From positions 10,659,501-10,723,500 of the forward strand of contig CM034550.1 in the NCBI GenBank assembly GCA_020055645.1: 64,000 nt of DNA, in the 5' to 3' direction. This stretch comes from Tomocerus qinae. Its lineage: Eukaryota > Arthropoda > Collembola > Entomobryomorpha > Tomoceridae. Shown one piece after another: positions 1 to 59,801 of this stretch (its first letter is position 1; the number at the start of each line of letters is the position of its first letter). The notes under the pieces were generated by a model. It did no database searches and was not told the origin of the DNA. It was given only the letters and a program-made list of their open reading frames with translations. The position numbers were made by a program, and so were the translations under genes.

Positions 1-916
1 AGATATTCTATTTAAGTATTGACGAAAAACAGAAACCTCTACAATCTTCTTTCCTGGATGAGGTGTAATATGTCAGAATAATATAATGTTTTATGGTTGA
101 GTACTATATTTAGTTGGGCATCAAATATTTTCCTCTAGAGTTTTAGGATATTTAGTATCACGCTTTCTTTTGTTTCGAGAATGATTTGCATTTCTGTTAG
201 GAGTGTTTACCTAATAGTTCACAGATAGGTATATTATGTACTCCTTTCTGTTTTGGTTGAAAGAAATCACGAATGCCGAATAGAATGGTAAACTAACAGT
301 AAGCACAATGTTTCCATAAAGTGTTCAGTTCAGTTGGCGTCTTTTTTGGCAAGCCCAATCGATTCTGTTGGTTCAATGAGCAGAAAATCGTGTGCTTGCA
401 GAATCGTACTCATCTCCAGTTCTGGCAGACTTCAGAAATCTTATATTTCGTACTATGTTTTGTCTTCGTCTGACTTTCTTTCAGTTGGATGCAAGTTTTG
501 TACTTTTTCACGGTTACTCTATAGTCTGATATTAAGCTAACAATAAGCAATATCGAAAAGGATATCGTGTGTGTTGAGTCTGGTTTTTCATTTCATGATT
601 CTTTATTCCATGGCATCTATTACAACATAATTCGTTGAAAGTTTTTCATTTTAGGAAGTACCCATTTATGAGGAGAACAATGATAAAACATGCTTAAGGT
701 TTGGAATGGTGAAAGTGCATGTCAAATTCATATTGTAAGTAAAGCGTTGTTTTAAGAGCAGAATAAGTTTTTGCGAATTCATAAAAAGTACAAGGAGTTG
801 TAGCGATGAGTATAATCTTATACACAAGACGACGCATTTATTAAATAAGGAAGAAAAGTTGTAGTTAGTGGGTTTCTTTTATTTGATGAAAACTTTGATG
901 TTTGGCATGTCTATAG
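1..916 (+). other. Upstream intron of the NMDAR2 gene (partial)
   Basis: A+T-rich sequence with no coding pattern that I can match to the amino-terminal domain of an NMDA receptor. It ends in the acceptor ctatag just before the first recognisable exon. A 68-codon open frame at 334-540 has no family resemblance. The amino-terminal (LIVBP-like) domain exons and the promoter must lie to the left of the window. Confidence 0.7.
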
Positions 917-10200: not shown

Positions 10201-13200
10201 ACATCCACATTCACTTTGATTAATCTGTTCCAGAGGTGGAATACTGATGCTATAATATGGAGGATAGAATGCTTGTCATACCTATGCAAGATATTGCCAT
10301 ATAAAAAGATTAAATGTCTCATTAGGTTTAAGTGGGTGCTACAAGAGCAATGTTTCTGAAAACTGAACTTGACCAAGAATGGCAATGGATAGATAGTACA
10401 CATTACACATCATCATGTGTAAGTATCTATAGTATCCCTGATTATATTTTTATGAAGGTATATAGTATATAATTCAAAGAAAGCTAAAAAAGGTGTTTCA
10501 AATCCATTATGTATCTGTAGCCTCACTAAATTCTTAATGAAATGGATATGGAAATGCTAACATTATCTTTTACTACTATTACCCACATTACATTCCCAAT
10601 GATGATTTTTAATTTTAAATACCATTGAAATATTTTTATACACCCCAGAAGAGTTGGTAGATTCTTGTGAATATCTTGATAGTATTCTATTAGCAAAGGA
10701 TATAGGTTTAACTAAACTAAAGTGAAAACGTTAATAGTTTAATCATGTGTGCATAAAGTATTATATTACTGTGCCATTACCGTATTCGCCAAAAAATGAA
10801 ATTACTTTTATTATGGGCTGCTGATGCATATTTATAGTGAAGTGAGTAAAATGATAATGTGCAATGACATCATTTGGTTATTTTTTATGGAAATATAAAA
10901 GAGTGTAGTTTTCTTAATAGTTTTTGTAGCTTTGAGCATTAATTTGTGTATTTGTGTGTGAATAGACTGAACCTGACAGCCCTGGTGGTGGCACTTTATG
11001 AGTGGTTTAGCCCGTTTGGTCTTAATCCTTGGGGGAGGCAACGTACCAAAAATTTCAGCATGGCCTCTGCTTTATGGGTCGTTTGGGGACGATTGTTTTC
11101 CCATTTAGTGGCATTTAAGGTAATGACCATCTTACATTACAAGTCGTGTCTATTGAATATGGAGAAGACAGTGTAGTACTTGAATATAGATCATACACGT
11201 ACAATCATGCCGCACTTTCGAAGATTACTATATAGGTATCTTTGTTACACTTACAGTCCAGTTCACTTTAGACTTAACTTCATCTTCTGTCTATGTATCT
11301 TCTGCTTTCCTGCTCCTATTCCCATTCTCATCTCATCCATATCAAATTGCTTGCACCACAATGAACAGTGACAACTGGCAGACATCAGATCTCCCAAGTA
11401 GGCTCTTCTAAAATAAAGAGACGTATCCCCTAATTTTCTGCTGTATCTGTAGATACAAAATTGTCCCTTTGTACTATACTTAAGCTTGCAATTCCATAGA
11501 ATTTCCTATAGGTATCTCTGGGTTGTTGTGTAGTAGAGGAAGTACAATCACTTAATTCTCATCTGTGATAAGATCTTTCCATTTGTAAGGTCACTAAAGA
11601 TAATGCCATGTACCATGTACCCATTTGAATAATTTTCTTGGAAAGCCAGTGCTACATGATGATAGTGCGAGACGATTTAATGAGCCTTGAATTCCCTATA
11701 AATATTAAACCTCTAGATTTATGATCATTAGCTCTATTATCATCACTCATGTCTGTTTTTCTCTATCCAAGACAATAAAACAATGTGACTTATGATAATA
11801 CACAAGGGACAATGCTATGTTTAACTACACAATACCGAAATTAAAATTACAAATTTCATCAGCATAATGAAAAGGATGTCTCTTTGTATTTATGTTTGTA
11901 ATTCTGTCTGGTCTGGTTAAAAAATCTTTAAAATTCCGGTTAGGTATGTTATTTATCATTCAGTAAGTAGGATGTTAGTCCCATCAGTTGGAGAATCATG
12001 AAATATGTAGGTCAGTCCTGTAGTACATTGTATTGTGACCTATTTATTTGAAATTGAAGTAGACGAATGGGAATTGATAATTAATATTTACCATAATCCT
12101 GAGTGTCTGTAAATTAGGTACTTACCATTAAGTATAGGGAGCTTAAGATCTGGAAGTACGTGGTGGGGAGTTAAAATACTATTGGGTTGTATAGTGCAAT
12201 TTCCAGGATCAGATGTGGAGTACTGGAATTGTGTAACTATAATTTATTTATACGTGTAATTGGCATTTGAGTGATGTATGTTCAGTATTTATATTCACAT
12301 TTATTTATGCATTAGCCTTATTGATATTTAACGATCGTGGTAGCAAATGGACATGTTGACACGTTGCTTGACTCAAAGTCTATTTCTGGTTCTAGGCTCC
12401 TAAATCATGGCCTAATAAATTCCTTATTAATGTATGGGGAGGATTTTCCGTTATATTTGTGGCCTCGTATACCGCCAACATTGCTGCCCTTTTTGCTGGA
12501 ATGTTTTTCGAACGGGCTGTGGACGTTAACGACCGAAGTGTAAGTTGCCATAATAGTTTGTTTCAAATACTAATTTTAATTATAATCTTTGTTTACCTAA
12601 TTACATTACAAATGATAGCTCTAATCTAAAGCATGTACAATTACTAGTAGTGTATTACGATGCCCACATAAGTTATGACAATAAGATTGAAGAATGCACG
12701 AACATTGTTCGTGCACACTCAAGCGCTAACTTGCCTTTTCTGTAATCTATTTTTTGTTATTATTATTGTTCAATCTTATTGTCATACTTTATGAGGAGGG
12801 CATCGTAATAATTAAAACTTTACTTTTGCTGCTTTTATTTTTATCATTATTTTGATTTTTCTATTTTTCTGTGATCAATTTAGGTTGGGGTGTACGTTTT
12901 GTAATATTTATTGGAATACCCAGAATATCCATCTTAACAGTTTTTTAATGATTTTTTATGGTTACATTGGCAGTTTTGATAAACAAGTAAAAGTTTGGGG
13001 TTACACGGAGTTGATTTTTAAAGAAACCTTAGTGTATCCGTTTATTAAAGCTGTCATGACATAAGTAACCGAAGTGCAGATGCAGTGAGCTGAAATGAAG
13101 TGAAATGTAGCAAGTTCGTAGAAGTAAAATGAAAGTAGCAAGAGGAAAACAAAGCAAATACTTAGCATTGCAGATTGCTGCAAGTTACGTACTTGGTTTA

Positions 13201-28200: not shown

Positions 28201-31200
28201 CCATTCCATTAGATCTGTTTGTAAACCTATGTCACATACAGTATGTCGCAACCGACAATACTCATGCTACTTTCTCTTTTATAATATAAAACTTTCCCCA
28301 ACTTTCACCTTTCAAAAATCCGTTAGACCTAATTAAAAGTTTTCTTCGTGAGGATTAAGAAGCTGGTGAAAATTCAGTAAGGAAATATCGTAGGAAAAGA
28401 GAAAGTACCAGGAAAGCCGTTGGTTGAGACATACGGTATAAAATTGTGAGAAAGCAAATGGGTTAGGAGTAAGTCCGTAATATATGTATGTATGTATCTC
28501 TGATAAATAAATACTTTTATAGAATGATTGTATATGTAGGTTGATGGGGTATACGAATGTAGTCGATTAGGTCGTCATCTAACTGATGCTACTTTTGTCC
28601 CACTTTTCAGAAATGGGAGTTTGGACTTGCTCATTGGAGATGGACCTTTACTGGACTATTATCGAGGCACGGACTCTTCTTGTAGTTTAATAGACGTCAG
28701 TGATCATGACAAAATCGGGGATGATACATATGCGGTCGCTATGCCTAAAGGATTCCCACTCAAAGTAAGTCAACTTTCCTCTCCTCATGTATATAATATT
28801 TTTCGTAGCTTTGTTTAACATTTGAACGAATTGTAATTTTAAAAATTACCACAGAAATATAGACTTCACGTGCAGTGTTGGAAATTGTGTCGTAATGCAT
28901 TACACAATCTAATTCGGTAGCATCATCATATTTTAAAATACCAAAGTCTTAGTTGTATCTGTCAATAAACTGAGTAATAAATTTTTCCATCAACCTTTCT
29001 CACAGTGCAGTTGTCCCTAATAAAATTCAAAAATTATAATTGCTTTATATAAGCTTTGGCTTGGCATTTTTGTTGACAATACGGAATACGGCTACTATTA
29101 CCATAATACACATTTCAATTCAAGTCATAGAAAAGTTAAATAGCACATGCATAGTTTGAATTTGATTACAAAGCATAAAAGAAAGCTAGACGTCATAAAC
29201 GTTTAATGTTAAAGAAATATACAATGCGTAGTATACATTAACAGATCTTTAAATAGAAATAGCAGGGAATAATAAATGATACTCAAATGAGACTTAGAAT
29301 TTGTCCGTAAAAATACTTCCATTAACTAAAAAGTTAGTGAAATTTACCAAATATTTTATCATTTTTCATACTTTCATACTTCAATCGCAGTTTCCTTTGT
29401 ATTCGCACCATTTTCTTCAATGTAGTCATTAAGGTGAATTTTGTATTTGTTATGGGGTAAGGTAAAAACCACATTAGTTGCTTCGTCAAAATACAGTGCT
29501 TCCGCTTTATTCACTGATTTATCTTTCAACTTTCTCCCAAAGAACATGAAATAAAACTACTATCAACTTATTACATTATTATGGTAATTCTATTCAATAG
29601 GTGTTTTGTACATAATTGTAATGTACTCTGTTCGATGGATAATTGTCACTGTACCATGGAATTTGTCACTAAAATAAGCAATATGCAAGTGTGTATGCCA
29701 TGTATATTGCATAAAAAACAATGAACTCGGGGTTGGCACTAGCATCTTATGAAATTAAACCAAATGTTGATACCTAAAGCGTTTAAATTGAAATAGTGGC
29801 CTTTCCTATTTACTTTGCAGTGGTTTATTAATAAAAATACAAATTAAGCCAATGCTTATTGAAAATTGGGTCACATGAAGGTGTGGCCTACAGTAAATAA
29901 ATGTTGAAATTATCATTTAAAATATGCTGTATGGTTAACCAACACTGTTTCGTCTAAATAAAATGTATTGGACGTATACCAATCAGGAAGCCTAATTCAT
30001 CTTTCAGTTTTAACCTTATCCCAACCCAACTTTGGCAATCACACTATCATATTATAATTAGCTTTGTAAGATTGATTGGTGGAAGCCCACACTTCTATTT
30101 CAAGACCTACTAAATGTATATAAAATAAAGTTTGTTCTTTAAAATAAAATGCGTATATGAGGTCTAAGTAATCGAATTTTTTAACTTTCATCCAACTTGA
30201 AACGCGTCACAACATATACTGGGGTAGTCAGTAAAAAATGCTCAAGCGATTATTGATCTGGTTGCTTTTGAAAATAAACATTTACTATAAGCATGTTTAA
30301 GTACTTACACCAACATTCTTTCTAGTCGTGCCTTTAGCTAATTATGTACATATTGCACACAGCACAACTAGAGATACTTTTTAACCGAACTAACCGAAGG
30401 TACTACAGACGTAGATGCTTAGTAGTTCGTTATAGCTGTTTTTTGTCACATTGTTCTGCTTCTTTATTACCTAACACACAAATATCCGTATCATCACAAG
30501 AATCACAATTTCTTGGAAGTACTAGCCATGTCTATTGTCCTCAAAAGTGTTATTTATTATTAAGTGAGATAAAGAGAAAGCTATCTGACACAGACACAAG
30601 GCTTTACTATTGATAAAAAATTCGAGAAAAGCATCCAGTTGTGAAAATCTAGAATTGAGTTGTTTTGATAAAAGGAAATGAAAGAGACCGTGGTGGAAGC
30701 CCATAGGCCACTCTTTATTGCCACTCGGCTTACTCTGACAGGGATCCCAATACTTGAACTCTCATTTTGATAGACAGATTCAAGAGGATAAAGAGGCTAG
30801 TGCCTTTGCGTAGTGACGTTGAAGATGTCTTACACTATTTCATTTATCAGTAAGAGGTAAAACACTTCACACGTGCAGGGTGTGTGCGTGTGTATTTCTT
30901 ACCAACCTAAGTCGACATTAATACTATGTTACTAGAAGTAGTATTTTCTCTAGCGAATACCATAGAAGAAAGTTTTTGTCTTCTAGGCTAAATCAAATTG
31001 ATAATATAATTTGCAAAAATGAACAAGAAATAAGTAAAACTAGGTAGCTTTAAGCTAGTGACTCTTATATACCATATTTCACTAAATATACGTATATTAC
31101 ATGAGAATGTGATGGATGAAAGCGTACATAGAGGTATAAATATATTTAGTTATGTATATAATGTACAGTTAGTTACACAGATAGTGTCAACAATGAGTAG

Positions 31201-43200: not shown

Positions 43201-44670
43201 GAATTGTAATAAGAGAGAAAGAAAAGATATAGAAAGGAAGGAATTCTTGTGTGATACATTTCTCTATCTGTGAGGAGATAGGAGAGCAGTTGATGATAAG
43301 TAGTGAGATCAAACAATGAGTTGCAACTGCGTTATATGTAACGTGTTAGTTGCTCATCTTGTCTTTGTTCAATTGTGTAAAAGTCTAGCCAATTGTAACC
43401 TACATAGTAAATAGGATCGTAATAAAACATACACACAAGATTCTGCCATCCCTATTCTTCGGGAAATAAGTAAATCCAGAGAGAGAAAGACCTTTCCTGT
43501 CATTGCTTTCTTCTCAGGAGAAAGGCAAAGAAATTTGATCAGGAGGTTTTCATTGGCGAGCAGGAAAACTTTGATGTTTTTGAGAAAGTATTGAAAGTGT
43601 CAGTTAATATTTTATGGCTTGTCTAGATTCCAGTGTGAAAAGTGGAGGAAAGGGTGGATACTAACGAGCAATGTTTCTTAAATGTAGTCAGTGAGATATT
43701 GGCAGGAGTTAGAAGGTGAGGGAGATAAAGATAAGCGAGGAAGGACGGAATTTGTACGGAGTGGAATTTGAGTAAAGACTGTAAATGTGAAGGGAAATCT
43801 GATGTATGAATAATTCATTGCAGAGTGCAGAAGGCAGAACGTCAGCAGAGTCTCCAGCAAGAAGATTCGTTGGATCTAGACGATAGTAACTCAACAATAT
43901 ACTCAATCCAAGGAAGACTGGAGAGCAACAAACAAATGCCAAAAGTTGTCCGAGTTTTAGGAGAGCACGCTGACATATATCAGAATAAAGCTCTGCCAAT
44001 GGGAGCATCAGCTCTTCCAATAGGTGCCACGGCTCTACCGACGAGTCCCACGATTTTGGAAGTACCAGAAGAGTTGTTTCCTGACGTGGATATGCTTTCT
44101 TTACCGCCCCCTCCGCCTGGCTACCGAAACTCTCCCGAAGAGCAAACAGTTCAGGGACGCTCTGTGAAATCCTCGTTAGTTGACAATAAATCCAGAGATA
44201 AAAAGAGCAACACGAAGAAGAAAATCAAGTTCAAAAAAGAGCCATGCTCGTCCACATCATTGTTTTCTCGGAGAAAATCTTTTGAAGATCCCGCGGCGGC
44301 GGAAGAGGGTATCGCACACAGACAGTATTATCACTATCGGAAGAAGAAACAAAAGGAGAAATTGCGATCCAGACCGGAAGGAAGCTGCGACGAAATCTTC
44401 GACGATGACTATGAAGAGGAAGATCTCAACCTGGCTGTCTACGGAGGAGATAGCACTGAAGAGTCAATCGGGGATCCTGGAGATATCGAAGAACCAGGCT
44501 CAATGGAGCAGAGTAATTTTAGTAGCATGAGTAAATCTCAAGTGATTGAATTATGGAGATCCTCCGAGATGGATTTGAGGCGACAGTTGGCTCAAGCTCT
44601 TAAAGATAAAGAAAAGCTCGCTGAGAAATTAGAGGTAGTCACGAAACCGGAAATCCTTGACCCTCCCTGA
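917..44670 (+). CDS. Nmdar2: NMDA receptor subunit 2 (arthropod NMDAR2), 3' twelve exons, 5' end outside window
   Basis: Join 917-1235, 1340-1513, 9813-10039, 10966-11119, 12396-12539, 14124-14257, 28611-28764, 31372-31488, 32037-32210, 42117-42236, 42463-42533, 43824-44670. All phases agree and give 877 residues before TGA. The product is a ligand-gated cation channel subunit of the synaptic plasma membrane. In order (numbering from the first whole codon in the window): linker 1-106; S1 ligand half with F160, P187, S189 and the ligand arginine R194; M1 about 232-255; pore loop about 273-291; M3 with SYTANIAAL at 315-323; S2 with T353 and D394; M4 about 483-508; cytoplasmic tail 509-877. The membrane-proximal tail (KLYRFINCVELVSPHHAAKE, QRRRRKSKAQFFEMIQEIRR) is the stretch I remember as conserved in insect NMDAR2. 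The usual Asn pair of the GluN2 pore is replaced by Ser-His (285-286). Exons are short and introns very long. The amino-terminal domain is missing because the window starts inside the gene. Confidence 0.93.
1340..1513 (+). CDS. Nmdar2: Nmdar2 exon b: S1 ligand-binding half
   Basis: Acceptor tgtatgtag, donor TCC|gtaagt, phase 0-0, 58 codons. Encodes CCDGLAMDLLSSVARELKFE and LYLVPDGYFGSR, which align with the GFCIDILKKLS and LYLVTNGKHGK stretches of vertebrate GluN2. The aromatic F160 sits where GluN2A has the ligand-contacting His485 and GluN1 has Phe484. Confidence 0.93.
1514..9812 (+). other. 8.3-kb intron of Nmdar2
   Basis: Bounded by gtaagt and tttgttgtttcag. No gene found on either strand. 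It contains A+T-rich unique-looking sequence, GTA/TAG-rich short motifs, a perfect 14-bp palindrome TAACGTTAACGTTA at 3423-3436, and two C-poor top-strand patches (about 5200-5700 and 7300-7640) that open long frames of Ser/Leu/Thr-rich composition on the opposite strand (5336-5701, 7314-7640); I regard these as by-products of composition. Confidence 0.75.
9813..10039 (+). CDS. Nmdar2: Nmdar2 exon c: S1 ligand arginine and first half of M1
   Basis: Acceptor tttgttgtttcag, donor AC|gtgagt, phase 0 in and 2 out. Encodes HWNGLMSVLLSGAAHMSFAP, then the ligand-site strand ending in the invariant arginine (SVTSTR), the VDFSTPFFFSGVGLL strand, and FSPELWVAIFI, the start of M1. Compared with GluN2A, Ser511 is Pro and Thr513 is Ser, while Arg518 is kept. 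Confidence 0.94.
10040..10965 (+). other. 0.9-kb intron of Nmdar2
   Basis: Bounded by gtgagt and tgtgtgtgaatag. A+T-rich, with nothing recognisable inside. Confidence 0.8.
10966..11119 (+). CDS. Nmdar2: Nmdar2 exon d: end of M1 and pore loop (M2)
   Basis: Starts with one base that completes the Thr codon from the previous exon, and ends GCATTTAAG|gtaatg in phase 0. Encodes LTALVVALYEWFSPFGLNPW (end of M1 and M1-M2 linker) and the re-entrant loop SALWVVWGRLFSHLVAFK. The position equivalent to the GluN2 N-site is Ser and the N+1 site is His. An Arg (282) lies three residues before the Ser. The EYFSP-like motif after M1 (YEWFSP) is conserved across NMDA receptors. Confidence 0.94.
11120..12395 (+). 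other. 1.3-kb intron of Nmdar2
   Basis: Bounded by gtaatg and tatttctggttctag. A+T-rich, no gene or clear repeat seen. Confidence 0.8.
12396..12539 (+). CDS. Nmdar2: Nmdar2 exon e: M3 gate helix with SYTANIAAL
   Basis: Acceptor ggttctag, donor CGAAGT|gtaagt, phase 0-0, 48 codons. Encodes APKSWPNKFLINVWGGFSVI and SYTANIAAL, the signature gate motif of ionotropic glutamate receptors (SYTANLAAF in vertebrate NMDA subunits). It then runs into the M3-S2 linker (FFERAVDVNDRS). Confidence 0.96.
12540..14123 (+). other. 1.6-kb intron of Nmdar2 carrying a MITE-like element and an extended AG-free 3' end
   Basis: Bounded by gtaagt and, unusually, aataaag. Contains the inverted-repeat element at 12655-12808. 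Its 3' end has a branch-point-like CTAAT at 13987-13991, a long pyrimidine tract at about 13990-14023, and then about 100 bp with no AG before the splice acceptor. Confidence 0.8.
12655..12808. mobile_element. MITE-like element with about 38-bp terminal inverted repeats and TA target duplication
   Basis: The left end TTACGATGCCC (12655) continues through TATGACAATAAGATTGAA. The right end (12769-12808) is its reverse complement apart from a few mismatches and a short gap near the middle of the arm. TA dinucleotides flank both ends (12653-12654 and 12809-12810), as expected for Tc1/mariner-type insertion. At 154 bp it is non-coding. A second near-perfect palindrome, tgcacgaac..gttcgtgca (12695-12715), lies inside. 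No second copy was seen in the window, so family membership is inferred from structure only. Confidence 0.6.
14124..14257 (+). CDS. Nmdar2: Nmdar2 exon f: M3-S2 linker and start of S2
   Basis: The only acceptor that fits is aataaag at 14123, because a stop lies in this frame at 14076-14078 and no other AG occurs between the two. Encodes LLSQRVAAVKHSATDFYIKR, then ENPHLWEHIQKF and QQGVDMLK, matching the FGTVPNGSTERNI and GVEDALVSLK regions of GluN2. Thr353 matches ligand-contacting Thr690 of GluN2A, while Ser689 is Ala here. Donor TTGAA|gtaagt, phase 0 in and 2 out. Confidence 0.88.
22241..22267. repeat. Perfect 12-bp A+T hairpin
   Basis: Arms tattatattatt and aataatataata are separated by gtg. 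Low complexity, so chance is plausible in this composition. Confidence 0.5.
23621..23783. repeat. Foldback (19-bp inverted repeat) bracketed by 15-bp direct repeats
   Basis: The arms are 23632-23650 and 23712-23730 (18 of 19 pairs match, taattcatttttaatggag against its complement) with a 61-nt loop. A perfect 15-bp direct repeat, gataattttagtaat, occurs at 23621-23635 and 23769-23783. The arrangement could be a degraded MITE or foldback element; no coding potential. Confidence 0.5.
26055..26070. repeat. 16-bp perfect palindrome centred on CAGCTG
   Basis: CATATCAGCTGATATG is its own reverse complement, and a second TATCAGCTGA follows about 20 bp downstream (about 26090). CAGCTG is a core bHLH (E-box) site; intronic location in a neuronal gene makes an enhancer possible but unproven. 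Confidence 0.45.
28611..28764 (+). CDS. Nmdar2: Nmdar2 exon g: S2 with ligand aspartate
   Basis: Acceptor cccacttttcag; the first base completes the Lys codon. Encodes NGSLDLLIGDGPLLDYYRG, whose Asp394 aligns with GluN2A Asp731 that binds the ligand amino group, then a cysteine (SSC) and DDTYAVAMPKGFPLK, matching the GYGIALQKGSPWK stretch. The residue before the Asp is Gly, where GluN2A has Tyr730. Donor CTCAAA|gtaagt, phase 0. Confidence 0.94.
28765..31371 (+). other. 2.6-kb intron of Nmdar2
   Basis: Bounded by gtaagt and gaattttttatacag. A+T-rich, with no recognisable gene or element. Confidence 0.8.
31372..31488 (+). CDS. Nmdar2: Nmdar2 exon h: end of S2
   Basis: 39 codons, phase 0-0, acceptor ttttttatacag and donor GCTCGG|gtacgg. 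Encodes ESISSLIAKYIGNGYIDYLQ then GKWYGQMACY, corresponding to the ID-LLQF-G-GEMEELETLWLTGIC segment before M4. The Cys is the partner of the conserved S2 disulfide with the Cys in exon g. Confidence 0.93.
31489..32036 (+). other. 0.5-kb intron of Nmdar2
   Basis: Bounded by gtacgg and ggttttctttttctag. Nothing else seen. Confidence 0.8.
32037..32210 (+). CDS. Nmdar2: Nmdar2 exon i: M4 and start of cytoplasmic tail
   Basis: 58 codons, acceptor ttctttttctag, donor TCTCAG|gtttgt, phase 0-0. Encodes DAVAGMFIMLGVGMIVGLLI and LLLELIVYKY, a hydrophobic helix (M4), then a basic juxtamembrane segment (PYFRAQPRGTLWRSPNLMFF). Confidence 0.94.
32211..42116 (+). other. 9.9-kb intron of Nmdar2
   Basis: Bounded by gtttgt and ctttgccttttccag. 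No supportable gene. Contains a C-poor patch (about 32590-33075), a C+T-rich patch (about 33240-34000) and a GATGTGAT-like cluster at 38244-38270. A short open frame at 39523-39711 reads like coding sequence but matches nothing I know. Confidence 0.75.
42117..42236 (+). CDS. Nmdar2: Nmdar2 exon j: conserved membrane-proximal tail
   Basis: 40 codons, acceptor ccttttccag, phase 0-0. Encodes KLYRFINCVELVSPHHAAKE and RHGQITSLFQKSVKR. The donor AAAAGG|gttggg is weak, but the protein continues correctly into exon k. Reading through would add about a dozen codons and stop at 42272. Confidence 0.9.
42463..42533 (+). CDS. Nmdar2: Nmdar2 exon k: basic tail segment
   Basis: Acceptor attttttcctag, donor CGGAG|gtaatg, phase 0 in and 2 out. 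Encodes KEHEQRRRRKSKAQFFEMIQ and EIR(R): a polybasic run next to the membrane-proximal tail, as in insect NMDAR2 from memory. The run could act in ER retention or lipid binding, but that is inference. Confidence 0.9.
42534..43823 (+). other. 1.3-kb intron of Nmdar2
   Basis: Bounded by gtaatg and aattcattgcag. Strongly purine-rich on the top strand, which opens three overlapping antisense frames (42973-43316); I reject these as genes. The acceptor has a poor pyrimidine tract. Confidence 0.75.
43824..44670 (+). CDS. Nmdar2: Nmdar2 exon l: long cytoplasmic tail to stop codon
   Basis: 847 bp: one base completing Arg, 281 codons and TGA (44668-44670). It is hydrophilic and probably disordered. 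Features in order: a short ALPxGA-type triple repeat (about 653-668), a run of five prolines at 690-694, a Lys-rich stretch (KKSNTKKKIKFKKEP), an acidic stretch (DDDYEEEDLNLAVYGGD), and a terminal amphipathic, probably coiled-coil segment (VIELWRSSEMDLRRQLAQAL followed by KDKEKLAEKLE). It ends EILDPP and has no PDZ ligand of the vertebrate ESDV type. Confidence 0.92.
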
Positions 44671-49211: not shown

Positions 49212-49254
49212 ATGCCCAAAATTTGGGTCTCATTGGCGTTTTTACTACTGCTTG
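49212..49254 (+). CDS. Gp93: GRP94 exon 1: signal peptide
   Basis: ATG plus [14 protein letters not shown]; donor CTTG|gtaagt, phase 1. The hydrophobic core continues in exon 2. Confidence 0.92.
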
Positions 49255-52200
49255 GTAAGTTGACATTTTACTTCAGGTTTTTTCAAATTTGCAATCTTAT
49301 TTTGAATAGGAGGTTGAAATATTTTTATATCTACGCTTTACAAAATGACATGCCGGTTGCAAGAGATTTTCTAATTTTATTTTGCAGGTTTCTTAGGAGC
49401 CACTAAAGCAGATGTAACTTTAGATGAATCGGATTATGAAGGAGAAGGTGTCACACCAAAAGTAGAGTCGGACATAGGAAAAAGTAAAGATGGTTCGCGA
49501 ACAGATGATGAGGTTGTGTCCAGGGAGGAGGAGGCCATAAAAATTGACGGTCTTAATGTAGCCCAAATTAAAGAAATGAGAGATAAGGCTGAGAAATTTC
49601 ATTTCCAGGTGAGTGCCAATGCCTAATAATATTTCTGTAATCTTCTTGCAGCTATTTATATTATATCTGACTTGAAATTATGCGGATTTAAGTGGCAATG
49701 ACGTGTATTTATTTTTTGTGCGTATAGGCTGAGGTCAGTCGAATGATGAAATTAATTATCAACTCCTTGTACAAAAATAAGGAAATTTTCCTTAGGGAAT
49801 TGATCTCAAATGCGTCAGATGCTCTTGACAAACTTAGATTGTTAGCTTTAACTGACAAATCAATCCTAGACGCTACGGATGAGTTTAGTATACGTATTCG
49901 AGTAGATAAAGAAAATCACCTATTGAATATTGCCGATACTGGAATTGGTATGACTAAGGAAGAGCTTGTCAAAAATCTTGGAACAATCGCCAAGTCAGGA
50001 ACCAGTGATTTCTTAAATAAAATGCAAGAAGCTGCTGACGCCCAGCAACTTACTGATTTAATTGGACAGTTTGGTGTTGGATTTTATTCATCATTCCTTG
50101 GTAAGTAATGTAATGCTTTTTGTACTTTCGGGCTATTTGTTTTTGATCAATTTTAACTCATATTTTTCATTTAACGATTTTAGTTGCTGATCGTGTTATC
50201 GTCACAAGCAAATCCCCTGAAGATCCTGTACAGCACATTTGGGAGTCAGATGCAGCTGAATTTTCTGTCGTTGATGATCCACGAGGTGACACTCTAAAAC
50301 GCGGAACTCAAATTAGGTAGGTATTTTTATTGGTGTGATGCCCTTCAATTGTTAATGAACTTATAATGACGTATCACCGAATGTTAAAAGTGCAACTTTA
50401 AAGCATAAGTTAGACTTCCGTTTTTCATGCATACGTATATTTCAATTAAAAATCTTTTCTCAACTGCTTTCCAGTTTGAAAATGAAACCTGAGGCAACAA
50501 GTTATCTTGAAGATGCTACAATTCGGAACTTAGTGAAGAAATACTCCCAGTTTATAAACTTCCCTATTTATCTGTGGGCTGAAAAGGTAAATTTAATTGA
50601 AATAATTCTTGAAAGTGTGTTCTCACATATTACGTGGCTTTTGAGTAAAAGATATTAGGTTTGATATCATAAACACTCGTAAACAAATACAATATGATTT
50701 GCAGACTATCGAAGAAGAAGTTCCAGCCGACGAGGAAGAAGAAAAGAAGGAAGACAAGACAGAAGATGCCATTGATGAAGACGAAGATGCTAAAGTTGAA
50801 GAATCTACTGATACTGATAAGCCAAAGACAAAGAAGATCTCAAAAACAGTATACGACTGGGAACTTGTAAACGAATCTAAACCTATATGGACCAGAAAGC
50901 CAGGTCAAGTAGAAGATCCCGAATATGACGAATTTTACAAAAGCTTAACAAAGGATACCCAGGCACCTCTGGCTAAGACTCATTTTGTTGCTGAAGGAGA
51001 AGTGACATTTAAGGCTTTGCTTTTCGTCCCAGCTGTTCAGCCCTCTGAAAGTTTTAACCGGTACGGAACCCGAACTGATAACATCAAATTGTATGTTCGG
51101 CGAGTATTCATCACCGACGATTTCCAAGAAATGATGCCCAACTACTTAGCATTTGTTCGAGGAGTTGTCGACTCTGACGATTTACCATTAAATGTTTCTC
51201 GAGAAACCTTACAACAAAGTAAACTCATCAAAGTTATTCGGAAGAAACTCATCCGGAAGACATTGGATATGTTGAAGAAAATGGAAGGAGAGGATTACAA
51301 TAAGTTCTGGAAGGAGTATTCAACAAATATCAAGTTGGGAACCATCGAAGACACATCGAACAAAAGCAGATTGGCCAAACTCCTGAGATTCAATACTTCT
51401 GCCGGTGCCGGATTGTCATCCCTCACAGAATACGTGTCCCGAATGAAGGACAAGCAGGACGCTATTTACTACATAGCTGGTTCTTCCAAAGAAGAAGTTG
51501 AACGATCACCTTTTGTTGAACGTCTTTTGAAAAAGGGTTACGAAGTTTTGTACCTCACCGAAGCTGTTGATGAGTACTGTATTGGTGCTCTCCCAGAATT
51601 TGAAGGAAAGAAATTCCAAAATGTAGCCAAGGAAGGGTTCAGTCTCGCCGATGGTAAAGCTAAAGACAAACTCGAAGAATCTAAGAAAGTATTCGAACCA
51701 TTGACCAAATGGTTGGGTGAAAATGCCCTTAAAGATCAAGTAAGTATTCCTTAAGCTTAAAAATCGCTTTTTTATCGTTATTTTCTGCATCTCTCTCTGA
51801 AGTAACTCCCCTTTTACATTTTGGTAATGTACGTCAGAATGAACTTAACTCTTTAGTTAGTCAACCTACTACTGCATGGTTTTGGTTAATCAAGGTATCG
51901 GTATTCGGTATATGGCAACTATGTGCTGTATCGTCTCGCTCTAGTATTTTGTAATTAAAACATTTTTCATTTCACTCGACTCCCATTACGCATGCGTAAT
52001 TATAGTATAAACTGGGCTGTATAGGACAAACTGTCAAATTAGTCGTTATTAGTACTTTAGTTTTATTGACTAGTTATTCCACGGAAAACATAACATTAGT
52101 TTAACATAAAGGTGGTGATGGAAGGTGATGGTTACGGATGCTTGCTTTTTAATAGATTTCTAAAGCTCTGGTTTCGGAACGTTTGTCTAACTCTCCTTGT

Positions 52201-53324
52201 GCACTGGTGGCCGGTTTATATGGGTGGACTGGAAACATGGAGCGGATGGCTTTGTCTAATCCTCATCAAAAGGCTGACGATGTCTCTAAATCGTAAGTTC
52301 ATGTTATAAAATATTTTAGATTTTAAAAGCTGAGGTTAGTGAGAGGCTTGACCAAAGCCCTTCGGCCTTAGTCACTTCTCGTTTTGGGTGGACTGGAAAT
52401 ATGGAAAGAATAATCACTTCCCAAACCCACTCAAAGGCTGGAGACGTCAGCAAAGAGTATGAAATTTTGTTACAATTCATTGGTTTACATTGGTTGATGG
52501 CTACAATTCAATTGTTCTTATTGTGATTCAGGTTTTTGTAAGGAATCATAAATTTCCATAATATTTCCTATATCAAGTGTTAACTTAAATTTAAACTTCT
52601 GTAGATATTATCTAAGTCAGAAGAAAACAATGGAAATCAATCCCAGACATCCTTTGGTGAAAGAACTTCTTCGCAGAGTGAATGATGACCCAGCTGATCC
52701 TGTTGCAAAGGAAACTGCGCTTATGATGTTCAGAACAGCCACTCTTAGATCAGGTTATATGCTCAAAGACACTGTCGAATTCGCCGAAACAGTTGAACAA
52801 ATGATGAGACAAACTCTTGGTGTCCCCTTAGACGAAGAGGTAATTAATTTTTGTCAGTTATTACTGTAAATGGAATTTAAGTTAGACCCGTGCAAGACAG
52901 AATTTCCATAAGCGAATATTAAAAGGTTTAAAAATCGTGCAAAATTTTATTGATGATATGCCTTGGCAACTGCATAATGTCACTATTGAATTTATGTTTG
53001 CGGAATGCAAAATCTAATTCAAAGTTTATCTATTGCTTAGATACAAATTAAAAACAAATAAAAAACGAAATCCGCGTTTCAGATAACCTACAAAGAATTG
53101 GCACGGGTCTAATTTTAATTCCATCAACTCACATGTTAAATCATAAGTCATTTTTCTAACATTATTTGCATAGTTACCACTATTCACAAATCTCTTTTTT
53201 CTAGATTGACGAAGAGGAAGTCGATGGTCCAGAAGAAGAAGATACTCAAGCCCAAGAAGAAGATGCTGAAGGTGAAGATGATGGGAAAGGTGATAGCGTT
53301 GACACAGAACGTGACGAGTTGTGA
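49212..53324 (+). CDS. Gp93: GRP94 / endoplasmin (ER-lumenal Hsp90, Gp93), isoform with exon 7a
   Basis: Join 49212-49254, 49388-49608, 49728-50100, 50184-50316, 50475-50586, 50705-51739, 52156-52292, 52605-52839, 53205-53324; 802 residues, the normal family length. It is an ATP-dependent chaperone of the ER lumen that folds secreted and membrane proteins such as Toll-like receptors and integrins. Signal peptide at residues 1 to about 22 ([14 protein letters not shown]); N-terminal ATPase with [11 protein letters not shown] (109-119), DTGIGM (158-163) and GQFGVGF (202-208); acidic linker encoded at the start of exon 6; middle domain with [12 protein letters not shown] containing the catalytic Arg; C-terminal dimerisation domain ([24 protein letters not shown]); acidic tail ending RDEL for ER retention. 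ATG context aacATGC. Exon 7 has an alternative copy at 52320-52456. Introns are short (74 to about 420 bp). An ERSE upstream indicates induction by ER stress. Confidence 0.97.
49388..49608 (+). CDS. Gp93: GRP94 exon 2: signal-peptide end and pre-N region
   Basis: Acceptor attttgcag, donor TTCCAG|gtgagt. Encodes [14 protein letters not shown], an acidic pre-N segment, then [20 protein letters not shown] leading into the ATPase domain. Confidence 0.95.
49728..50100 (+). CDS. Gp93: GRP94 exon 3: ATPase core
   Basis: Acceptor tgcgtatag, donor CCTTG|gtaagt, phase 0 in and 1 out. Carries [16 protein letters not shown], the DTGIGM loop, [12 protein letters not shown] and [12 protein letters not shown], which are the nucleotide-binding motifs of the GHKL fold. 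Confidence 0.97.
50184..50316 (+). CDS. Gp93: GRP94 exon 4
   Basis: Acceptor cgattttag, donor ATTAG|gtaggt, phase 1 in and 2 out. Encodes [20 protein letters not shown] and the following strands of the N-domain ([18 protein letters not shown]). Confidence 0.95.
50475..50586 (+). CDS. Gp93: GRP94 exon 5
   Basis: Acceptor gctttccag, donor GAAAAG|gtaaat. Encodes the end of the N-domain ([27 protein letters not shown]). Confidence 0.95.
50705..51739 (+). CDS. Gp93: GRP94 exon 6: charged linker and middle domain
   Basis: Acceptor gatttgcag, donor GATCAA|gtaagt, phase 0-0, 345 codons. Starts with the acidic linker ([15 protein letters not shown]), then [13 protein letters not shown], the middle domain with [17 protein letters not shown] and the segment leading into the C-terminal domain ([16 protein letters not shown]). 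Confidence 0.97.
51740..52155 (+). other. GRP94 intron 6, upstream of the duplicated exon pair
   Basis: 416 bp, bounded by gtaagt and cttgctttttaatag. Contains a perfect 16-bp palindrome ATTACGCATGCGTAAT (51985-52000) and a G/T-rich tract (52111-52140, ggtggtgatggaaggtgatg) where a pyrimidine tract would be expected. No third copy of exon 7 was found here. Confidence 0.75.
52156..52292 (+). CDS. Gp93: GRP94 exon 7a: canonical copy of the alternative exon
   Basis: 137 bp, phase 0 in and 2 out, acceptor ctttttaatag, donor AAATC|gtaagt. Encodes residues 640-684 and part of 685: [20 protein letters not shown], then [20 protein letters not shown], then DDVSK. The NMERxAxSNxHQKxDD pattern is what I remember from insect Gp93, so I take this as the ancestral form. 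It spans the C-terminal-domain helix that in vertebrate GRP94 contacts clients. Confidence 0.95.
52320..52456 (+). CDS. Gp93: GRP94 exon 7b: duplicated, mutually exclusive exon
   Basis: 137 bp, identical length and phases (0 in, 2 out) to exon 7a and starting 27 bp after it. Acceptor aaaatattttag, donor AAAGA|gtatga. Encodes [20 protein letters not shown], then [20 protein letters not shown], then GDVSK: 29 of 45 residues match 7a, with many synonymous differences, no stop and no indel. Splicing into exon 8 gives Glu-Tyr-Tyr instead of Ser-Tyr-Tyr. Joining 7a directly to 7b would break the frame, so each transcript should carry one copy. Expression is not shown by sequence alone. Confidence 0.85.
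52605..52839 (+). CDS. Gp93: GRP94 exon 8: C-terminal dimerisation domain
   Basis: Acceptor acttctgtag, donor GAAGAG|gtaatt. The first base completes codon 685, then [32 protein letters not shown] and [16 protein letters not shown], the conserved dimerisation helices. Confidence 0.96.
52840..53204 (+). other. GRP94 intron 8
   Basis: 365 bp bounded by gtaatt and tcttttttctag. Nothing recognisable inside. Confidence 0.85.
53205..53324 (+). CDS. Gp93: GRP94 exon 9: acidic tail and RDEL
   Basis: Acceptor tcttttttctag. Encodes [20 protein letters not shown] and further acidic residues, ending DTERDEL and TGA (53322-53324). RDEL is a variant of the KDEL ER-retrieval signal. Confidence 0.95.
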   Translation: MDEEEVDGPEEEDTQAQEEDAEGEDDGKGDSVDTERDEL

Positions 53325-55249: not shown

Positions 55250-55307
55250 ATGGCTGAAGGAAACCAGGATTCTCAAGAATTGGTCCAAAGCGAAGCCCCT
55301 AAACTTG
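55250..55307 (+). CDS. Gene 3 exon 1
   Basis: MAEGNQDSQELVQSEAPKL; donor CTTG|gtaaat, phase 1. ATG context attATGG is favourable and an in-frame stop precedes it by 9 bp. Confidence 0.8.
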
Positions 55308-58300
55308 GTAAATAATTGTGAAATAACCGCTGCTGTGGTCCTTTTTGCGTAAAAGTTTAATCAAAATTCTACATGTATTTTGTTCGTTGAAAATCTCTTG
55401 AGGAAAAATACGGCAAATTTTAGATTAATATTTAGTAAATTCTATAGATGATTTTGAAGAAAACAAAAAAGACTCAGTTGATTGCTTTCTGGGACCCGAT
55501 GCTCAAGAAAATGCTGGAGGTGAGGGCGAAAATGCCATTGCTACCGAATTAAATGCTAATAATTTAGCCGTGAGGCTTGCAAAAGCTAAGAAGAATCGCA
55601 GAAATCGTAAACGACGAAACAAGAATCGAGGTCCAACAGAAAGTGGTCTGGCTTCCAATAATGAGAGTAATGACGCATTGGTGGATACAGATACTGAAGA
55701 TACCAATGTACAGATAGTTATTGCTTCTACTCCGGATTCTTCTATTGTTGATCAAAATGACAATTTTGAAATAAAACAGATTGTCGTAGGTAGTTCCTTA
55801 GTAAGTTTTTAACAGTATTAATGTCTATCCAATAATATAAAAAGGAAAAAAGTAGTATAGTTTTGATTCCTTTTCATCTACATTATCGTATTTACATTTA
55901 CATTTGCATTAATCAGTTTTCAATGTCTAATAATTAATGATAATAGTGGACATAACATTATAGAATTCAGCTATTGAATGCATGCCAGAAGAAGATGAAG
56001 ATTCATTTCATTCAGGATTGGAAAACCAAAGCTCAACAACGGAACAGAATAATAATACTGAGTTGAACAATGAAGAATCCGATCCAATTGTAAATTCGAC
56101 CAGTGTAGCTGATCGTGAAGATTCCAAATTGTATGCTACCCCAAGTAATGACTTTGCTCAAGAAAACGCTGTTGAAGTAAATCACGTTGTTGTGGACGTT
56201 TCTTCTGTAAGTTTCGCTATCTTTGTGTACTTCTTTTAAAGGTATCTGAGTAATAATATTTTGTATGTCAGAGTCACTTTTTTATTATTTAGAATGTCCT
56301 TAAAGAAAACTTTGTTGACTGCGAATCACTAGTTGATCAGTCCGTTTTATTACAAGGCCAAATTTCTTTTCCCGATCAAGATATCAATGAAATATGCAGT
56401 GATGAATATGAATCATGTGCTAATTCATCCAGTGTAAATATAATATATCAATCAGAAGAAGTAACTATTACAGAAATTGAAAATGTACATATTGTATCTA
56501 CTTATGTAGTATAACTTACTAACAAACGAGCTTCAGGTGCTATATACTTATATATCAGATATAACATAATAACACTGCTTATTTTACTTTTTAATAGGCT
56601 CAATCAGAAGACACAGTTCTTTCCAGTATAAACGAAGAAGATATTGAGGCAATGGACAAGTTAAATAGAGAATGGGATGCGCTAGTAACGCAGGATGATT
56701 GCTTAGATAATAAAATTTGGTTGGACATTGAAAAATCCGGAAATAATTTCGTGGATCAAGAACTAATTTCAGAAATATCAACATGCATTAATGAGCACTC
56801 TGATCTATACAGTCCTTCCTCGAGTTCCCACATCCATTTGAAGGTTCCGAATCCCAGCATTGAGCATTTAGAAGGCGAAGAATTAAATGCTAATAGCATC
56901 CATAGATCTCCATCTGGGGCTACATCATTGTTTAGAAGTGAAAGTGACCACATTTCTTCAGTTGCACCTTTTAACACAAATGTGAACGAAATTTTACAGC
57001 AAGCGTGCATCAAAGTGGAACAAGAAATAAAATCAGATCCGATTAAATGGGGTGGTGAGACTGCTTCTGTACCACTTTTAACTTCAACAGAAGACCTTGC
57101 TGTGCAAAATGGTGAGACAATATCTAACTAATTAAAATAAAATGAGGTATAGTTACTCTGCTTATGGTTTTCGTATAGAAGTAGGCAAAGTATACATAAT
57201 TTCCATTGATATAATGATAAATTGTTACGATTACAAAGAGTTTTTTCATGAATGGAGAAAGTTTTGCAATTTTTGTGTACTAGTTAGAGTAATTATTTTC
57301 ATGCTTTTTTTTGCAATGTAAACTTGATACAACAATGTATGCTTTCATAAATTCAATCCTCGTTTGTCTTTCAAACATAAAAGAAAAGAATAAAAGTGTT
57401 TATTTTAAGCATAGTAAGAGTTTAGAATGAGAATTTAGAAACTTAATTATAGACATGCAGTTCATTTATTGCAGTTGATTTCGGTGTAAATACTTTTTTT
57501 ATTTTTCTCTTTTTTGTGTTATTGATGTGAAAATGTATTTTCCTATAATATGGTCTGCCTACTTCTGCTTAAATTTGTTATTTTGTTAGGCTAGGCATGT
57601 CAGAGAGGGACAAAATTGCATCTCAGGTCATATAGTATCAGCTGACAAACGAGATAATACTTTTAAAGGCCTATAGTATGTTCTTCCATTCTTCAATGGA
57701 AAAGACTAAAATGATTTTTATTCTTAGTACCCTTTCACTGATTTGCACACAAAACTTTAATGAAGAAGTATAAAAATCAATTTTTGATAATATAACAGAC
57801 TGATATATTTTATCGTATTCATTGGTTTCACAGAATTTAACTGGGAAGAAATGAAGACGCAAGAAGCTATAATAGATTATCATCAAACGAAAGACGATGA
57901 ACAAGAAGGTGATGAAACGTTTTATAGTTTCAATGATGGATACAAAAATGAAGAAGTGGGAATGGGAATTAATGATTTTGTGATAGACATGGAAAATGAA
58001 GACTTCGGTGTTAAAGGAAAAGCTGTTAATGTTTCATCGGTTGATATTTCGTCGGAAGATGACTTTATTCAGAAACTTATTAACGGCAACTCTTCAGTAA
58101 GTGCATATTATATAAGCATATATAAGTGCATGCTTATCGTATTCTTGGAAATATATTTCATTATGCATATGCGTTTATGAACTGAAACCTTTTTTGCACG
58201 AATTTTAGAATAACCTTCTTGAACGTACGTCTCAAAATGAAATCACCTCTGATTTGCCAAACTCTCTGAGTGATTTAAATAATGGCCAATGTGTACTTTA

Positions 58301-59183
58301 CCCAAATACACCCAGCGTAAATATATTATATCAATCCGAAGATATAATTTTGCAGGAAACTGAAGCAGTATGAAATGATTCACTTTATTATTACTATTTA
58401 TTACATTACCCTTGCACATAAATTAAGAAAATAAATAAATCACAGTTAGATATAAATAATAAAAGGTCGAATTGTGTCAAAAGATTGTTAATTTTTGAGA
58501 AAAAGTTAATTTTTTTTTGAAATTTTAATGTTAGGTACGGTCGGAGGCTGCAGTTCACTTTTATGTCAAACATCCAGAAGTTGAAAATGTTGTGAAAAGC
58601 GAGTCGGTTGTGTTTGCATCTTCCGAAGATCGTTTGAATAACAACTATTGGCCACAGGACACAAAGTCAGAAATAAACTTACACGATGAGAATGAGATAT
58701 TAGACCAAGTAAAAGTGGCTCCTCGTGTTAGTATCGAAATGGAGGAAATTCTTCCAATTGCAAGCCCCAAAGTAGAACAAGAGTTGCAATCAAAATCTAA
58801 CTTAAACGTTTGGGATGTTGATTCATCTGTTGTACTGCGGGCTTTAAATGAAGTGAAAGCTGAAAATCGCGGTACTAGGTGCACAATCATTGATTTTTGG
58901 TACAAATAGTTAATGACTACAATAATTATTTTGTTTGAATTTAGAAGAGGACAAAGAAAGCAAAAAATGGTCCTGGAAAAATTTGCTTCCGTGTATGTCT
59001 AACAGTCCACGCAGTAAATCCAAAGATCGCAATCGTTCTCAATCGGCAAATAAACTTGATGAGGAAGCAAAGCGTAAGAAGAGAGGATCTTCGTTACCAA
59101 GATTCCTTGACAGGAAAAGGAATGAAAAACCGGCAGCCCAGGTCGCTGACGAGACACCAAAATCGACTGATCCCCCACGCTAA
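55250..59183 (+). CDS. Unrecognised acidic, probably disordered protein with duplicated exon module (785 aa)
   Basis: Join 55250-55307, 55448-55800, 55964-56206, 56293-56484, 56598-57111, 57834-58096, 58209-58367, 58535-58871, 58945-59183; total 2358 bp with consistent phases and a TAA stop. An in-frame TGA at 55241 supports this ATG. I do not recognise the family. The protein is rich in Asp, Glu, Asn and Ser with few hydrophobic stretches, so mostly disordered. It has a basic patch at residues 62-80 (VRLAKAKKNRRNRKRRNKN) and a basic C-terminus (KKWSWKNLLPCMSNSPRSKS and further Lys/Arg). Related repeats: SVNIIYQSEE (265-274) with SVNILYQSED (577-586), and EILQQACIKVEQEIKS (413-428) with EILPIASPKVEQELQS (665-680). 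Lys sites of the form psi-K-x-E/D (IKVE, IKSD, VKSE, VKAE) and V/I-rich clusters (VQIVIAS, IVVGSS, VVVDVSS) resemble SUMO-attachment and SUMO-interaction motifs. A nuclear scaffold is a guess. Confidence 0.85.
55448..55800 (+). CDS. Gene 3 exon 2: basic patch
   Basis: Acceptor attctatag, donor TCCTTA|gtaagt, phase 1 in and 0 out. Encodes the strongly basic VRLAKAKKNRRNRKRRNKN (possible nuclear localisation signal), then NVQIVIAST and EIKQIVVGSSL. Confidence 0.85.
55964..56206 (+). CDS. Gene 3 exon 3
   Basis: Acceptor taacattatag, donor TCTTCT|gtaagt, phase 0-0, 81 codons. Acidic, Asn/Ser-rich; ends VEVNHVVVDVSS, resembling the ends of exons 2 and 6. Confidence 0.85.
56293..56484 (+). CDS. 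Gene 3 exon 4 (module copy 1)
   Basis: Acceptor ttttattatttag; the best donor by comparison with exon 7 is GAAAAT|gtacat. Other GT sites at 56494 and 56506 stay in frame, and a stop follows at 56512. Ends with SVNIIYQSEEVTITEIEN, the counterpart of the end of exon 7. Confidence 0.75.
56598..57111 (+). CDS. Gene 3 exon 5 (module copy 1)
   Basis: Acceptor ctttttaatag, donor AAATG|gtgaga, phase 0 in and 1 out, 171 codons. Starts AQSEDTVLSS and ends with NEILQQACIKVEQEIKSDP and LLTSTEDLAVQN. IKVE and IKSD fit the SUMO-acceptor consensus. Confidence 0.85.
57112..57833 (+). other. Gene 3 intron 5, junction between the module copies
   Basis: 722 bp, the longest intron of gene 3, bounded by gtgaga and ttggtttcacag. 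A+T-rich with T-runs; nothing else recognisable. Confidence 0.75.
57834..58096 (+). CDS. Gene 3 exon 6 (module copy 2)
   Basis: Acceptor ttggtttcacag, donor TCTTCA|gtaagt, phase 1 in and 0 out, like exon 2. Acidic; contains VKGKAVNVSSVDISSEDDF. Confidence 0.85.
58209..58367 (+). CDS. Gene 3 exon 7 (module copy 2)
   Basis: Acceptor cgaattttag, donor GAAGCA|gtatga, phase 0-0, 53 codons. Ends PSVNILYQSEDIILQETEA, matching exon 4. Reading through the donor would stop after one codon. Confidence 0.82.
58535..58871 (+). CDS. Gene 3 exon 8 (module copy 2)
   Basis: Acceptor ttaatgttag, donor CGCG|gtacta, phase 0 in and 1 out, the same as exon 5. Starts VRSEAAV and ends EEILPIASPKVEQELQSKS and LRALNEVKAENR, matching exon 5 in order. 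Confidence 0.85.
58945..59183 (+). CDS. Gene 3 exon 9: basic C-terminus
   Basis: Acceptor tttgaatttag; completes a Glu codon, then EDKESKKWSWKNLLPCMSNS, SPRSKSKDRNRSQSANKLDE and a Lys/Arg-rich run, ending STDPPR and TAA. The composition is opposite to the acidic bulk of the protein. Confidence 0.87.
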
Positions 59184-59801
59184 TGTCATCAAGGCCTACG
59201 TTAATTTCTTTTAAAGAATCGTACAGCTCTTTTCATAAATAATTTGGGAAACATCTTAATTAATATTCTCTGTCTATCAAAATTCAAGTTAGCATTAACT
59301 GGTGAACACAATAGTTTGGGAGGTAACCAGAAATCAACACAAAATCATAAAATATTCGCTCATTCATAATTTTGTAATCGATTTGTCTTATATGGTTAGT
59401 ATTCTCAGGTTGTAGCTCGCAATTAAGTAGGTATCCAATTCAAAATTTACGAGATCTATATAACCATATTATAAAAACCTTTTCAGCTTTCTATGTAGGA
59501 TTTGCAGTGAAATTAGTATTTAAGTAGTATTTACTATCTACTACAATTACTTAAAACTATGTCTATATGAAAACACATTTATATACGGCGATATTAAATG
59601 CTATTTCACATTATATAGGTAGTGGGTCATTAAGTACTCATTCCCATTAATTTCGTTGTTTCATATTTTTTAAAGAACACCTACTATCCTGTCCTAAACC
59701 TATCAATAATATATGTCCCTATTCCATTAAAAAGGTAAAGCATACCGTACACATGTAGTCGTGTAGCATCGTCAAAAGGGGATCCATAATATAGAATATG
59801 G

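Follow-up and report, generated by a model that had tools for sequence, protein, structure and literature searches.

The gene for the endoplasmic reticulum (ER) chaperone GRP94 (endoplasmin) lies complete on the plus strand of the 64,000-nt stretch of Tomocerus qinae DNA analysed here (the window; contig CM034550.1), and it contains its exon 7 twice in a row. Judging by their sequence, the two copies, termed 7a and 7b, very probably form a real, old, tandem-duplicated pair of mutually exclusive exons. The anatomy, the phases, the frame outcomes, the length of the spacer between the copies and their constraint at the protein level are read directly from the DNA. More tentatively, and with slightly less than even confidence, we propose from the combined analysis that splicing may pick between two client-binding sites of the ER HSP90, both preserved by selection ever since an ancient duplication. 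For the exon pair itself, the spliceosome would join exon 6 to either 7a or 7b and then the chosen exon to exon 8, and joining of 7a to 7b would be sterically blocked. Mutually exclusive exon (MXE) pairs are of a known kind, and GRP94 is apparently a new gene for it. An earlier sequence-only reading of the window had called such an isoform switch undescribed for GRP94/Gp93; in agreement with this, none of the matches listed in a search of the open-access literature described tandem alternative exons for GRP94, Gp93, HSP90B1 or endoplasmin. Public annotation of a related species may already hold the pair as two isoforms.

The two copies of exon 7

Each copy is 137 nt long, preceded by AG and followed by GT, and is entered in phase 0 and left in phase 2. 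The sequence-only reading had located the pair at 52156..52456, and its coordinates, lengths and phases were all reproduced. Likewise, direct comparison of the exons returned the 45 aligned residues without gap or stop, 29 of them identical, that had been claimed; at the DNA level 76 of 137 bases match, with 19, 15 and 27 mismatches at first, second and third codon positions, respectively. The 7a and 7b peptides find each other by BLASTP with an E value of 3e-20, and the 301-nt stretch carrying both copies occurs only once in a DNA search of the whole 334-Mb genome. Chance resemblance and assembly artefact were thereby ruled out. In particular, the copies cannot represent an assembly duplication because their nucleotide identity is just 55%. 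A third copy of exon 7 was not found in the window, where tblastn matched 7a and 7b only (next E value at least 3.5). The spacer weakly resembles the 27 nt that follow 7b (14/27; shuffle P 0.03) and does not resemble the 27 nt that precede 7a (6/27; P 0.91); comparisons of 27 nt are too short for a conclusion on the duplication breakpoints.

An open reading frame of 802 amino acids results from spliced translation with either 7a or 7b, and exon 8 begins at 52605, which bears out the claim that 7b in place of 7a yields a full-length chaperone. The predicted protein has ER features, namely an ERDEL tail and a hydrophobic N-terminus judged by eye to be signal-peptide-like. Based on the Pfam profile PF00183 (cut-off 24.4 bits), exon 6 (493.8 bits), 7a (39.5 bits) and 7b (41.2 bits) belong to the HSP90 family, and in a genome-wide scan with the HSP90 profile both copies scored 37.2 bits. 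The top PDB match of either cassette alone is endoplasmin (43.7 bits for 7a, 39 bits for 7b); the best non-endoplasmin match is chloroplast HSP90-5 (32.5 and 29.7 bits), and cytosolic HSP90 proteins reach 29.9 and 28.3 bits. An origin of 7b from a cytosolic HSP90 gene was ruled out since endoplasmin is the best match and the genome's own cytosolic genes differ. The HSP90 profile gave at least 15 matches in the whole genome, distributed over three places: the GRP94 gene (5) and contigs C4 (6) and C1 (4). Whole-genome family searches score the best candidates only, and these copy numbers are thus lower bounds. There is no indication of another GRP94 gene, and the 7a/7b pair is an internal duplication.

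Synonymous sites are saturated between the copies (pS 0.754), as opposed to a pN of 0.342. In a neutral simulation, in which random substitutions were added to 7a up to the observed 59 mismatches per 135 nt under assumed base frequencies, none of 20,000 runs retained 29 or more identical residues; the maximum was 21, and only 8.4% of runs remained stop-free. Mammalian GRP94 (2o1t, which we take to be the dog protein) is almost equally distant from both copies (25/44 residues identical for 7a, 24/44 for 7b). When this protein, plant HSP90-5 and the HSP90 encoded by this genome itself served as outgroups for the 16 differing sites, an outgroup residue was present in 7a alone at three sites, in 7b alone at two, in both at three and in neither at eight. 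Neither copy looks like a remnant of its partner. 7a and 7b share 64% identity, not much more than the 57% found for 7a versus the mammalian protein, and the duplication is therefore probably old. On this sequence evidence both copies are constrained at the protein level, and the assertion that the second copy is old and under such constraint is supported by the simulation and by the equal distance to mammalian GRP94.

Spacer, reading frame and splice sites

Exclusivity is indicated by the spacer itself, which the sequence-only reading had not noted. The 37 introns estimated for this genome have a minimum of 78 nt and a median of 109 nt, the 21 of them that were located by script have a minimum of 80 nt, and the six GRP94 introns outside the exon-7 region are all at least 83 nt long; the spacer of 27 nt measures about one third of the smallest estimated intron. 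The estimates were inferred from gaps between adjacent chaperonin-exon profile matches (57 rows), excluding pairs whose profile gap fell outside -20..10 or whose distance exceeded 6000 nt. Sites of the 21 introns were placed partly by donor score with introns below 30 nt disallowed, which left 16 junctions without an acceptable intron; owing to the donor-score choice and the 30-nt floor, the set favours good donors and is blind to shorter introns. An excerpt of PMC6692369 gives a minimal distance of about 50 nt between donor and branch site; on one substrate, a distance of 35 nt abolished assembly. As 7a donor and 7b acceptor are 27 nt apart, any branch point between 7a and 7b would be much closer to the donor than 50 nt. 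Given the spacer length, the 78-nt smallest estimated intron and this published steric limit, splicing of 7a to 7b seems hardly possible, and steric exclusion is strongly indicated by the anatomy.

The reading frame is, as far as spliced translation can tell, a second lock against products with both exons, with neither or with the spacer retained, which meet premature stops 367, 156 and 397 nt, respectively, before the last junction. Slips of splicing would thus cause a frameshift and a stop upstream of the last junction, and such transcripts would be targets of nonsense-mediated decay. Together with the spacer, these three frameshifted products strengthen the original proposal of mutual exclusivity. 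We infer that both exons are used, that the choice between them is regulated and that errors are degraded. The same stop positions would also suit a role of 7b mainly as an unproductive switch, in which joint or misspliced products lower the amount of GRP94 via nonsense-mediated decay. This we consider highly improbable, because constraint at the protein level across the whole 7b cassette would be superfluous for a decay switch and the 27-nt spacer makes joint splicing unlikely.

Several observations weigh against, or limit, the reading as a mutually exclusive pair. The donor of 7b scores only 0.23 and thereby lies below all 28 comparison donors (range 3.2–10.8), which comprise 21 inferred introns and seven of GRP94 and favour good donors. 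The 7a donor is also low, at 6.55, with 5 of the 28 below it. The acceptor tract of 7b is near the low end with a pyrimidine fraction of 0.53 (0.47–0.76, mean 0.61; n = 21). Neither whole-region nor local RNA folds were stronger than those of shuffled sequences (z 0.64 and z -1.05), a query with exon 6 against genome contigs returned 40 loci, all with bacterial titles, and none among viral contigs, and the effect on clients that we infer below is extrapolated by alignment from mammalian work. The earlier statement that both copies have usable splice sites holds for the AG and GT dinucleotides, present on both, and is qualified by the weak 7b donor. One of the splice-site scans used assumed donor frequencies. 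Alternative 7b donors of the same phase occur downstream at 52469, 52493, 52514 and 52523 and begin with GTT or GTG. In general, this genome seems to have loosely defined 5' splice sites, with G at +5 in about 48% of the 28 donors.

Weak splice sites are common in regulated exons, and a decaying exon would look alike. The weak donor and acceptor tract of 7b would fit a dying duplicate, functional for most of its history, whose use was lately lost so that only 7a-GRP94 is made. We regard this as unlikely. The 45 codons of 7b are free of stops and frame damage, GWTGNMER is intact, and 7b is about as near to mammalian GRP94 as 7a and its equal on the HSP90 profile. Moreover, the simulation excludes neutral drift over the whole divergence, a result with which recent loss is still compatible.

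Control of the exon choice by RNA structure found no clear support, be it from folds compared with shuffles or from inverted repeats. Docking/selector clusters of insects such as Dscam, 14-3-3zeta, Mhc and MRP1 are, according to an excerpt of PMC6071210, arthropod tandem exons of which one is chosen, as may be the case for 7a and 7b; GRP94 differs from them in having two exons, a 27-nt spacer and no supported RNA structure. That competing structures of this type set the exclusivity, the short spacer being incidental, has a precedent in these genes, and weak inverted repeats are present at the 7a donor (52294-52302 with 51839-51847, 9/9). We nevertheless attach very little weight to it since the folds are no better than shuffles, by our own estimate 865 nt should contain about one perfect 9-nt repeat by chance, and the 27-nt spacer is sufficient alone.

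Parallels to a sterically enforced pair are found in vertebrates, and steric interference below 50 nt is an accepted mechanism of MXE control. The vertebrate OGDH exons 4a/4b are mutually exclusive through distant branch points, placed 25–41 nt from the upstream donor and under a proposed steric threshold (excerpt of PMC7969005). Like 7a and 7b, these are tandem homologous exons with a size-restricted intervening intron, although the gene is different and in GRP94 the whole spacer amounts to 27 nt. Among 629 human MXE clusters, an excerpt of PMC5740500 reports a donor-to-branch-point distance below 50 nt in 57 and an exon length that is not a multiple of three in 377. Short distance and frame-breaking length are shared with 7a/7b, while animal and gene are not, 'HSP90' having no occurrence in the main text of that paper. 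For human HSP90B1 an rMATS 'MXE' label in microglia (PMC11346782) concerns the same gene and the same event label; there it denotes a short-read event class, and duplicated homologous exons are not described in the excerpted text. Window positions 52256-52278, inside 7a, contain the branch-point-like motifs CTAAT and CTGAC, which precede the 7b acceptor by 64 and 46 nt. It is tempting to speculate that 7b uses an exonic branch point, but both motifs are ordinary codons too.

The client-binding domain

The client-binding domain of gp96 (GRP94) comprises residues 652–678, of which GWXGNMER is cited as essential for interaction with Toll-like receptors (TLRs) and 653–660 are deleted in a mutant (excerpt of PMC4868323). 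Based on the numbering of domain and motif in that excerpt, cassette position n corresponds to mammalian residue 630+n. Cassette positions 22–45 thus cover 24 of the 27 residues of the domain, the motif included, wholly within exon 7; the codon that follows is shared between exons 7 and 8. In the excerpted mammalian literature the domain is treated as a single fixed site, whereas two versions of it are encoded here; worm ENPL-1 likewise makes use of a conserved client-binding domain (excerpt of PMC10112894).

GWTGNMER is the same in 7a and 7b. Differences inside the domain fall on residues 652, 661, 662, 663, 665, 666, 668 and 671 and on the split codon 676, and the remaining eight lie upstream of it. 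Residue 662, Ala in 7a but Ile in 7b, belongs to the Met658/Met662 pair, which is reported as necessary for integrins and dispensable for TLRs. Where 7a has Cys645, 7b has Ser, which reduces the cysteines of the protein from two in the 7a isoform to one in the 7b isoform. Yeast K594 presumably corresponds to cassette position 33 (Leu in 7a, Thr in 7b), and the A577 switch site, 17 residues before K594, presumably to position 16, where both copies have Ala. In human HSP90, A577 is matched by C598 (PMC7375816) or C597 (PMC7057950), and K594/K607 of HSP90 is the site of a methyl-lysine C-terminal switch (PMC7057950). By this count the Cys-to-Ser change is presumably not the known S-nitrosylation switch point, as it occurs at position 15 and the A577 site would be the neighbouring position 16.

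Taken at face value, the swap would retain the GWTGNMER core, alter other client-binding residues including 662 and drop one of two cysteines. Both isoforms would have the ATPase machine in common and might differ in the clients held or in C-terminal conformational control. Client recognition by GRP94 is called an open question in an excerpt of PMC6726633.

Gene features, other loci and implications

Features of the GRP94 gene (window coordinates)
Feature	Position	Strand	Remarks
GRP94/endoplasmin coding region	49212..53324	+	9 coding exons per isoform, 802 aa, C-terminal ERDEL (spliced translation; Pfam HSP90)
Exons 1-5, refined boundaries	49212-49254, 49388-49608, 49728-50100, 50184-50316, 50475-50586	+	spliced translation
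Exon 6, upstream partner common to both isoforms	50705..51739	+	donor CAA/GTAAGT; Pfam HSP90 493.8 bits
Exon 7a	52156..52292	+	45 residues plus 2 nt; sequence comparison, PDB match, Pfam HSP90
Spacer, 7a donor to 7b acceptor	52293..52319	+	27 nt; below intron sizes estimated for the genome
Exon 7b	52320..52456	+	45 residues plus 2 nt; sequence comparison, PDB match, Pfam HSP90
7b donor region AGA/GTATGA	52457..52465	+	weaker than 28/28 comparison donors
Exon 8, downstream partner common to both isoforms	52605..52839	+	spliced translation
Last coding exon	53205-53324	+	spliced translation

Upstream of GRP94, window positions 849-44670 (plus strand) read by eye like a gene for an NMDA-type ionotropic glutamate receptor. 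ORF 12396-12626 scored 29.9 bits with Lig_chan, just under the cut-off of 30.8, and ORFs 849-1346, 28540-28815 and 43810-44667 had no Pfam match. The downstream gene, at about 55250-59190 (plus strand), has acidic and serine-rich exons and one basic segment; the three ORFs tried gave no Pfam match. Elsewhere in the genome, C4 carries two tandem cytosolic-type HSP90 genes at 4.960 and 4.968 Mb, identical at 600 of 600 bases in one compared piece and with few residue differences in other exons, which suggests recent duplication or gene conversion; gene duplications of cytosolic HSP90 are treated in an excerpt of PMC3774752. The gene on C1 with four HSP90-profile matches was taken for TRAP1 by eye. 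C1, the largest contig, also contains COX1-like copies (one at 36670928-36672268), of which one is almost full-length and has an open frame under the mitochondrial code; these are perhaps nuclear mitochondrial insertions.

If splicing indeed picks between two client-binding sites, 7b (Ile662, Ser645) and 7a (Ala662, Cys645) would handle distinct groups of clients, such as integrin-like as opposed to Toll-like or insulin-like clients, according to tissue, stage or stress state. The gene seems to provide a clean natural exchange of nearly the exact published client-binding segment with the remainder of the chaperone unchanged, and its cassettes could show on which residues the selection of integrins, Toll receptors or insulin-like clients depends. 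With its 27-nt spacer, it would also be a particularly simple example from nature of mutually exclusive splicing that is enforced sterically. Client specificity of an HSP90 would then be set by an exon switch.

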